From positions 310,001 through 374,000 of the forward strand of contig NZ_JACBJG010000005.1 in assembly GCF_015910535.1 (NCBI RefSeq): a stretch of DNA of 64,000 nucleotides, given 5' to 3'. Source of the stretch: Saccharomonospora sp. NB11 (lineage in GTDB: Bacteria; Actinomycetota; Actinomycetes; Mycobacteriales; Pseudonocardiaceae). A model generated the notes under the pieces. It made no database searches, was not told the origin of the DNA, and saw only the letters and a program-made list of their open reading frames with translations. Position numbers and translations under genes: made by a program. Of this stretch, positions 9,977 to 39,225 are shown in pieces (the stretch's first letter is position 1; the number at the start of each line of letters is the position of its first letter).

Positions 9977-10648
9977 GTGAAGTTCCTGCGTCGATCGAGC
10001 ACCACAGAGGCCGACACCACCGACGGCACCGCCGAGTCCGGCACCACCGTCGAGGACGCCGCCTCCGCCGAGGCCCGTCGCAAGGGCTACACCCCGGGCA
10101 AGGGACGTCCCACGCCCAAGCGCCGCGAGGCCGAGGGCAAACGGCGCGGCCCGGTCGCTCCGCCTCCGCAGACCACCCGGGAAGCCATCCGCCGGAGCCG
10201 TGAGCTGCGGAAGAAGAACCCGGTCAGCAAGGAGGAGCGGCGCGCTGCGGCGCGCGAGCGGCGGGAACGCATGCTCGCGGGTGACGAGCGTTACCTGCTC
10301 CCCCGGGACCGTGGTCCGGTGAAGGCGTACGTCCGCGACCTCGTCGACTCGCGGCGCAACGTGCTCGGGCTGTTCATGCCCATGGCGATCGTGGTGTTCA
10401 TCACCCTGCTGATCCCGATCATGGTGGTCCAGCAGTACGCGACGCTGCTCACCACGGTGCTGCTGCTCGGCATGATCGTCGAGGGCTTCCTCAACGGCAG
10501 GCGGATCAGCAAGCAAGTGCGCGAGAAGTTCCCGAAGGAGACGATCCGCGGCTCGTCCATCGGGTGGTACGCCTTCGTGCGCGCGAGCCAGCTGCGCAAG
10601 CTCCGCGTGCCCAAGCCGCGCGTGAAGCCCGGCGACAAGGTCGACTGA
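9977..10648 (+). CDS. DUF3043 family membrane protein
   Basis: Conserved actinobacterial membrane protein of unknown function. From the GTG at 9977 it has 223 residues. The first ~110 are very basic and disordered (runs such as KEERRAAARERRERM), then comes the motif DRGPVKAYVRDLVDSRRN. Two adjacent membrane helices (about 134-155 and 159-178) follow, then a basic tail with FVRASQLRKLR. An in-frame stretch back to 9464 is only an open frame antisense to erpA. It is divergent from the Fe-S carrier gene, and the 21-bp repeat array begins 18 bp after its stop. Confidence 0.85.
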   Translation: MKFLRRSSTTEADTTDGTAESGTTVEDAASAEARRKGYTPGKGRPTPKRREAEGKRRGPVAPPPQTTREAIRRSRELRKKNPVSKEERRAAARERRERMLAGDERYLLPRDRGPVKAYVRDLVDSRRNVLGLFMPMAIVVFITLLIPIMVVQQYATLLTTVLLLGMIVEGFLNGRRISKQVREKFPKETIRGSSIGWYAFVRASQLRKLRVPKPRVKPGDKVD

Positions 10649-10666: not shown

Positions 10667-10897
10667 GTGTCCGCGAGTTGCGCACGCGTGTCCCCAGTCC
10701 CCGTACGGATGTCCTGGGCTCGTGTACGGGTGTCCGCACCCCACGTACGGGTGTCTGCAGCTCACCTACGGGTGTCGGTGGCTCCCGCGCTGGTGTCCGC
10801 ACCCCACGCACGCATGCCCCCGCCTCCGGGCTTCGTGTCCGCACCCCACGCACGCGTGTCCCTGGCTCGTGGCCTCGTATCGGCACCTCTCGCAGTT
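10667..10897 (+). repeat. Tandem array of 21-bp units beginning GTGTCCGC (plus orientation)
   Basis: Eleven consecutive units start exactly 21 bp apart: 10667, 10688, 10709, 10730, 10751, 10772, 10793, 10814, 10835, 10856 and 10877. The best units read GTGTCCGC-ACCCCAC then GTACGG or GCACGC. The first six bases are most conserved (GTGTCC, with ATGTCC, ATGCCC, GTGTCT, GTGTCG and GTATCG variants) and the middle drifts. Because 21 is seven codons, several reading frames stay open and encode artificial 7-residue repeats; I see no gene. It occupies the 427-bp gap between the DUF3043 gene and the aldo/keto reductase together with the inverted array. Function unknown. Confidence 0.9.
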
Positions 10898-10939
10898 GTC
10901 AGCAACTCTGAACGCAAGTCCGTCGCTCGGAGGGGAGAC

Positions 10940-11023
10940 AAGGAGGGCAACTGCGGACACCCGTGCACAGACAGCGGACACGAGTTCACGAAGTGCGGAC
11001 ACGATGACGCAGGCGGCGGACAC
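10940..11023 (-). repeat. Four 21-bp units of the same repeat in inverted orientation
   Basis: GCGGACAC, the reverse complement of GTGTCCGC, occurs at 10953, 10974, 10995 and 11016, exactly 21 bp apart. Read on the minus strand each begins a 21-bp unit; the cores are perfect while the rest differs. It faces the plus-strand array across about 45 bp and ends 52 bp before the aldo/keto reductase start. The intervening bases 10898-10939 contain no recognisable unit. Confidence 0.88.
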
Positions 11024-11075: not shown

Positions 11076-12071
11076 ATGGAGTTTCGTCGTCTCGGCCGTA
11101 GTGGCCTTTCCGTCAGTGAAATCGCCTACGGCAACTGGCTCACCCACGCCTCCCAGGTCGAGGAGGAGCAGGCCCACGCCTGCATCAAGGCCGCGCTCGA
11201 CGCCGGCATCACCACCTTCGACACCGCCGACGTCTACGCGAACACCGCGGCGGAAGCCGTGCTCGGCCGCGGGCTGGCCGGCCAGCGCCGGGAGAGCCTG
11301 GAGATCTTCACCAAGGTCTTCTGGCCCACCGGCCCCAAGGGCCCGAACGACAAGGGCCTCGGCCGCAAGCACATCATGGAGTCGGCCCACGCGTCGCTGA
11401 AGCGCCTCGGCACCGACTACATCGACCTCTACCAGGCACACCGCTTCGACCACACCGTGCCGCTCGAGGAGACCATGACCGCCTTCGCCGACCTGGTGCG
11501 GCAGGGCAAGGTCCTCTACATCGGCGTGTCCGAGTGGGACGCCGAGCAGATCGCGCGGGGCGCCGCGCTCGCCCGCGAGCTGAAGATCCCGTTCGTGTCC
11601 AACCAGCCGCAGTACAACATGCTGTGGCGGGTCATCGAGGACCAGGTCGTGCCCACCTGTGAGCGCGAGGGCCTCAGCCAGATCGTGTGGTCGCCCATCG
11701 CGCAGGGTGTGCTCACCGGCAAGTACAAGCCGGGTCAGCCGCCGCCCGCCGGTTCCCGCGCCACCGACGAGAAGGGCGGCGCGCAGATGGTCGGGCGTTA
11801 CCTGAACGACGACGTGCTGACGCGGGTGGAGCGGCTGCAGCCGCTCGCCGAGCAGGCCGGCCTCACCCTGGCTCAGCTTGCCGTGGCGTGGGTGCTGCAG
11901 AACAGCAACGTGGCCTCGGCCATCATCGGCGCCTCCCGCCCGGAGCAGGTGCAGGAGAACGTGAAGGCCTCGGGCGTGAAGCTCGACGACGACCTCATGA
12001 CGGCGATCGACGAGGTCCTCGACGGCGTCGTGGAGCGCGACCCGAGCCAGACGAAGAGCCCGATCCTCTGA
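11076..12071 (+). CDS. Aldo/keto reductase (Kv-beta/YghZ-like)
   Basis: NADPH-dependent reductase of the aldo/keto reductase superfamily, a cytoplasmic TIM barrel. The 331 residues contain the catalytic tetrad Asp49, Tyr54, Lys80 and His122 and, in the C-terminal half, the cofactor-binding region WSPIAQGVLTGKY followed by SAIIGASRPEQ. It is the subfamily related to potassium channel beta subunits, which commonly reduces aldehydes such as methylglyoxal; the actual substrate is unknown. ATG at 11076. It stands alone, flanked upstream by the inverted 21-bp array and downstream by a hairpin shared with ispD. Confidence 0.9.
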   Translation: MEFRRLGRSGLSVSEIAYGNWLTHASQVEEEQAHACIKAALDAGITTFDTADVYANTAAEAVLGRGLAGQRRESLEIFTKVFWPTGPKGPNDKGLGRKHIMESAHASLKRLGTDYIDLYQAHRFDHTVPLEETMTAFADLVRQGKVLYIGVSEWDAEQIARGAALARELKIPFVSNQPQYNMLWRVIEDQVVPTCEREGLSQIVWSPIAQGVLTGKYKPGQPPPAGSRATDEKGGAQMVGRYLNDDVLTRVERLQPLAEQAGLTLAQLAVAWVLQNSNVASAIIGASRPEQVQENVKASGVKLDDDLMTAIDEVLDGVVERDPSQTKSPIL

Positions 12072-39099: not shown

Positions 39100-39141
39100 A
39101 CGGACCGGAAATGCGGACACGTGTGCGTAGGACGCGGACAC
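39100..39141 (-). repeat. Two 21-bp GTGTCCGC units next to tRNA-Val
   Basis: GCGGACAC at 39113-39120 and 39134-39141, exactly 21 bp apart, are the same core and spacing as the arrays at 10.7-11.0 kb. Read on the minus strand the units follow the 3' end of the tRNA by nine bases, so they point in the direction of tRNA transcription. This shows that the repeat is dispersed and not a local duplication. Confidence 0.85.
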
Positions 39142-39150
39142 GCGCGTTCG

Positions 39151-39225
39151 TGGTGGGCGCAGCAGGGTTCGAACCTGCGACCCCCTGCTTGTAAGGCAGG
39201 TGCTCTCCCGCTGAGCTATGCGCCC
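39151..39225 (-). tRNA. tRNA-Val (anticodon TAC)
   Basis: The minus strand folds as a complete cloverleaf: acceptor GGGCGCA with TGCGCCC, D arm AGCTCAGCGGGAGAGC, anticodon loop CTTACAA (anticodon TAC, reading GUA) and T arm with GGTTCGAACC. Discriminator A is at 39154 and the CCA end is encoded (39151-39153). It lies downstream of ahpE behind a hairpin. Confidence 0.97.

Follow-up and report, generated by a model that had tools for sequence, protein, structure and literature searches.

Direct repeats of about 20 bp that lie in helical phase, on which cooperative protein binding is expected, are characteristic of the iterons of plasmid origins. REP sequences and BIMEs are extragenic, lie mostly in convergent or codirectional gaps near gene ends, occur as pairs in opposite orientation and bind proteins such as gyrase or IHF, and their units are stable palindromes tagged with GTAG or CGTC (PMC2817692; PMC3733652). 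Pol I is a further protein bound by elements of this kind. REPINs are also extragenic and dispersed, and consist of inverted pairs with a species-specific sequence, mobilised by RAYT transposases (PMC3116915). Searching the open-access literature, we found no account of the array family described below, an absence that is no proof that none exists.

The window, which is the whole 64,000-nucleotide stretch of Saccharomonospora sp. NB11 DNA that was analyzed, contains rows of 21-bp repeats behind a DUF3043 gene and behind a tRNA gene. The features are as follows.

9977 to 10648, plus strand: DUF3043 gene (Pfam PF11241, E 1.9e-60) with a presumed GTG start codon and an array at its 3′ end
10667 to 10897, plus strand: forward array, 11 steps of 21 bp, core GTGTCC(GC)
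10898 to 10939, no strand: spacer between the two facing arrays, its centre degenerate here (sequence read directly)
10940 to 11023, minus strand: facing array, 4 GTGTCCGC units of 21 bp
11076 to 12071, plus strand: aldo/keto reductase gene, downstream of the element
39100 to 39141, minus strand: second array of the same 21-bp family, 2 units, 9 bp past the 3′ end of tRNA-Val
39151 to 39225, minus strand: tRNA-Val (anticodon TAC), followed by the second array

An earlier note on this DNA had described eleven units with a 21-bp period at 10667–10897, placed 18 bp past the stop of the DUF3043 gene and containing no gene, and each of these points was borne out. Unit starts fall at 10667 + 21k (k = 0 to 10), with 10897 as the last base, and when cores were counted in a single phase, 9 of the 11 lay within one mismatch of GTGTCC, compared with a maximum of 4 among 20,000 shuffles. 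Self-identity of the forward array was 0.57 at a lag of 21 and 0.68 at a lag of 42, against a median of 0.28 for lags 5–59 and a shuffle maximum of 0.43. The DUF3043 stop codon occupies 10646–10648, leaving the 18-bp gap to the first unit; a Pfam search with the translated array matched no family, and an Rfam search gave no match across the array. The core is kept more loosely than had been claimed: the exact GTGTCC is present in 6 of the 11 units and the full GTGTCCGC in 4, and the title of the note therefore overstates it. The unit at 10814 is highly degenerate (0.6 bits by profile). The element is also larger than had been stated, since the forward array is real, but the minus-strand array that faces it (10940–11023), with GCGGACAC at 10953, 10974, 10995 and 11016, had been overlooked. 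A sister array behind tRNA-Val (39100–39141), within the same window, had been missed as well.

When the genome of the window (4.3 Mb, 29 contigs) was searched for GTGTCC-N15-GTGTCC, 99 forward and 96 reverse pairs were found, 195 in all, and the reversed pattern, used as a control in the same genome, gave 0 and 2 pairs. The arrays are scattered over about 100 loci of this genome, and in the complete genome of a relative, G128, they are distributed along the chromosome. All sampled genomes of the window's genus were rich in pairs (51–187 per strand), as were the sampled members of genera g4, g10 and g21 and, more weakly, g28; presence in genus g33 was patchy, with G133 alone being rich. These five genera belong to the window's family; elsewhere in the family and in the phylum, counts were mostly 0–10 pairs per genus, near background. 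Carriers with names include Saccharomonospora piscinae, Prauserella shujinwangii, Amycolatopsis arida, Qaidamihabitans albus and one metagenome-assembled actinomycete. The array in the window is a member of an extragenic repeat family that is specific to this lineage. A plain microsatellite or minisatellite does not fit the conserved core, the drifting remainder and the many loci, yet some arrays do have identical units. The search of the genome and its relatives had been suggested in the earlier note, whose binding-site idea survives it: the array is not unique to this locus, and it is no plain microsatellite.

The spacing of units was surveyed in 1.2 Mb of the window's genome, which included 1.07 Mb of contiguous, unselected sequence. 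The step between adjacent units on the same strand was 21 bp in 206 cases, 42 bp in 12 and 63 bp in 2, ten other distances up to 100 bp occurred once each, and there was no case of a 20- or 22-bp distance in this survey. The unit consensus is GTGTCCGC-R-nn-YY-n-YG followed by five linker bases, and takes the form CGTGTCCGC...YACKC in the window's genome. The core is common to all Saccharomonospora-type species and the linker is species-specific, being of the YACKC type in the window's species and TAGCC in S. piscinae. Genera g4 and g33 have a different interior, GTGTCC-TGC-RYTC..., in which the core is kept and the step is still 21 bp. The claim that the spacing is constrained was thus supported, as 21 bp is kept across the surveyed sequence and in genera with other interiors, while adjoining spacers change in length.

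The order of units within arrays was non-random in the window's genome and in G128, the unit at the gene end often having TGCG at positions 13–16 and the next one CCCG. In G003 (g4) and G133 (g33) the variant unit reads GTGTCCTGCRYTC..., with its interior moved by one base and the period of 21 unchanged. The DnaA box is TTGTCCACA; GTGTCCGCA shares 7 of its 9 bases, yet A is hardly ever found at position 7, and identity with a DnaA box was rejected.

The arrays are located in gaps between genes. With gene calls from a simple codon-usage caller, which places stops more reliably than starts, the share of gaps with an array was 11.2% where the flanking genes converge, 6.4% where they run in the same direction and 2.0% where they diverge (p = 0.016, gaps containing a 3′ end versus divergent gaps). 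Among 64 arrays with at least two units each, the nearest upstream feature was the 3′ end of a co-oriented gene in 42, and the distance from the gene end to the array was mostly 4–40 bp; arrays are also placed behind tRNA genes. For single arrays in codirectional gaps, co-orientation was unclear (about 12 to 6). The genes that precede arrays are diverse, including some that we take, from their sequences, to encode GroEL-like, serine hydroxymethyltransferase-like and transporter-like proteins, and in view of this diversity host-gene function was rejected as the selector of array sites. Where two arrays shared a gap in the window's genome, they faced inward in 13 of 15 cases and outward in 2, and because inward facing was also seen between codirectional genes, it is a property of the element itself and not of the neighboring genes. 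In S. piscinae and A. arida, the two halves join in a 26-bp palindrome, GTGTCCGCRNCGYRCGNYGCGGACAC, and the facing cores have start-to-end distances of 26 + 21k, so that both rows are in one register; in the window's genome this register is lost in most facing pairs, and the centre has mostly decayed.

The arrays are similar to REP sequences and BIMEs in being extragenic, present at about 100 loci per genome, near gene ends and paired in opposite orientation, and they share with them a high copy number and an enrichment outside divergent gaps. In contrast to REP/BIMEs, they are head-to-tail rows with an exact 21-bp step that face inward rather than alternating, and their unit has no stable palindrome of 20–40 bp, a palindrome being present only where facing arrays meet, and that in some of the species. 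Units in the window's genome also lack the GTAG or CGTC tag, with GTAG appearing only in the S. piscinae linker, and the hosts are high-GC actinobacteria rather than enterobacteria or the other REP-rich genomes. As with REPINs, the arrays occur in inverted pairs and are species-specific, extragenic and dispersed, but they have neither the constant Y1 transposase partner nor the fixed-spacing doublet of the REPIN-RAYT system, and they form tandem rows of variable length at sites mostly shared between species. They resemble iterons as direct repeats near 20 bp in helical phase, but occupy about 100 chromosomal loci with no link to an origin or a Rep protein. The earlier suggestion of protein binding along one helix face is consistent with the constrained spacing; its iteron-like form is unsupported, as the arrays lie behind many ordinary genes. 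A CRISPR array was ruled out, since the 21-bp units are contiguous and without spacers.

The features that are retained (core, period, inward pairing and gene-end position) are features of double-stranded DNA, and a reading at the DNA level is therefore best supported. We give about an even chance to the arrays being BIME-like extragenic repeats that serve as putative DNA-level protein-binding arrays at the ends of transcription units. The arrays would then act as double-stranded DNA, with a sequence-specific protein binding each core, and the 21-bp step, equal to two helix turns, would place the bound copies on one helix face, where they might contact each other. The family, its spacing and placement, the inward pairing, and the conserved sites with their changing copy number and sequence are observed; we infer the binding, its cooperativity and an effect on transcription-unit boundaries alike. 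Proteins arrayed where a transcription unit ends could bound that unit, for example by blocking read-through, or could alternatively fix a topological or nucleoid contact, as has been proposed for enterobacterial BIMEs. A bolder proposal would give the Saccharomonospora group an undescribed DNA-binding protein, dedicated to these sites, that assembles on helically phased GTGTCC rows facing inward behind about a hundred genes, marking transcription-unit ends as a roadblock or chromosome-contact point, in an array-type boundary element whose site and protein co-evolve into species dialects; taken as a whole, we regard this as speculative and rather doubtful. If the arrays do bind protein in phase, they would represent a naturally replicated experiment, with about a hundred boundary sites per genome that vary in copy number, sequence and orientation and whose non-core bases form species dialects, and they could be used to examine what sets the limits of bacterial transcription units in high-GC genomes and how sites spread over a whole genome change jointly.

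The main rival is a minisatellite, selfish or neutral and with no host function, that was seeded in the distant past at gene ends, the places where an insertion does least harm, and was kept by slippage and by conversion between copies. We consider this possible, if on the unlikely side. Copy number varies across orthologous sites, as at the DUF3043 locus, where the window's species and three relatives have 11+4, 3+1, 0+1 and 3+4 units and several other relatives have none, and some arrays have perfectly identical units (C21:78842-78989 and C14:353579-353726 in the window's genome; G128:C1:418538-418711). The latter are recent tandem expansions, so slippage does act. The patchy occurrence inside genus g33 also fits a minisatellite, as does a non-core consensus that is species-specific across loci, which concerted evolution would yield. 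A minisatellite with concerted evolution accounts in this way for the variable copy number, the identical units and the dialects, but not for the rigid step and the core. Between the window's genome and G128 (median protein identity 91%), 19 of 25 array sites were shared, and the spacer from the stop to the first unit had changed in length at 11 of 14 shared sites, so that small indels are common beside the arrays; the period of 21, however, never slips to 20 or 22. The core, moreover, is nearly invariant across several genera while the remainder changes. In the first two units of orthologous arrays, picked by a core-weighted profile, there were 0.028 changes per site in the core and 0.292 elsewhere, and a stricter comparison with units chosen by non-core identity gave a much weaker contrast (0.097 versus 0.146). 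Because of this choice of units and the weaker stricter contrast, the core is only likely to be under selection, the comparison of orthologous units being no proof by itself. A mobile partner was not apparent either: a search of 23 genomes found the Y1 transposase (PF01797) in 6, and array-rich G062, G003, G009, G020 and G133 were among those that lacked it, a plasmid search with the consensus array gave no match, and a search of viral contigs gave a single match in one contig.

The DNA-level protein-binding reading must also be weighed against an element that acts in the RNA, in which the transcribed array would be a Rho loading site, a chain of hairpins or a processing site at transcript ends. 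We judge this improbable. The arrays do have the position of a 3′ UTR, 4–40 bp past stops, their sense strand has a mild excess of C over G (38.5% versus 31.9%), and the 26-bp palindromic centre found in relatives could fold. However, the RNA fold of the whole element showed no excess stability (z 0.06), folds of single units gave z of about 0, and column covariation was strong only between neighbors, with no compensatory covariation or covarying stem. Hairpins with a U tract were not enriched, being present at 7% and 6% of array ends compared with 12% and 10% of other ends, and the GC-rich hairpin and U tract of an intrinsic terminator were not found as a feature of array ends. The orientation of arrays relative to the gene is not strict, the facing halves would be read antisense, and an RNA site would not need an exact spacing of 21 bp. 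Replacement of terminator hairpins by the array was rejected as well, as the genome-wide exclusion vanishes once array positions are masked; with hairpins counted outside the array, array ends are not short of them (8 of 69, against 27 of 700). At the DUF3043 end, two relatives, G114 and G027 (genus g27), have a hairpin of 12–13 bp.

In Streptomyces venezuelae, WhiA recognises the motif GACAC and binds it as a monomer, whichever way the motif is oriented (PMC3781837). Arrays and WhiA sites both contain this motif, which (as GTGTC) falls within the invariant core GTGTCC/GGACAC and may offer a mere lead toward a candidate binder. That the arrays serve as a WhiA sink or as regulatory sites seems very improbable to us: the five-base match is weak, WhiA sites are single and its targets in that study are promoters, whereas the arrays are rows at 3′ ends and are rare in divergent gaps, and WhiA homologues reportedly occur throughout Gram-positive bacteria, whereas the arrays are restricted.

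A translated repeat, with a seven-residue repeat peptide whose frame the 21-bp step would maintain, is hardly credible, for although the period is divisible by three and stops are few in any sense frame, they are equally rare in all three (6, 9 and 8), TAG recurs in each unit of the S. piscinae consensus in one frame, the 12 bases ahead of the first unit are C-rich with no Shine-Dalgarno sequence, the translation matches no Pfam family, and arrays lie behind tRNA genes and in both orientations.

In several congeners (L182, L183, L186–L189) the DUF3043 locus has a downstream gene order different from that in the window, and no array lies directly behind the gene. Within the aldo/keto reductase gene, at 11846–11945 on the minus strand, the only Rfam hit is to the c-di-GMP-II-GCG riboswitch; its score of 28.5 bits falls below the cut-off of 47.9, and it is probably due to chance. 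The arrangement of tRNA-Val (TAC) followed by an array is also found in G128.
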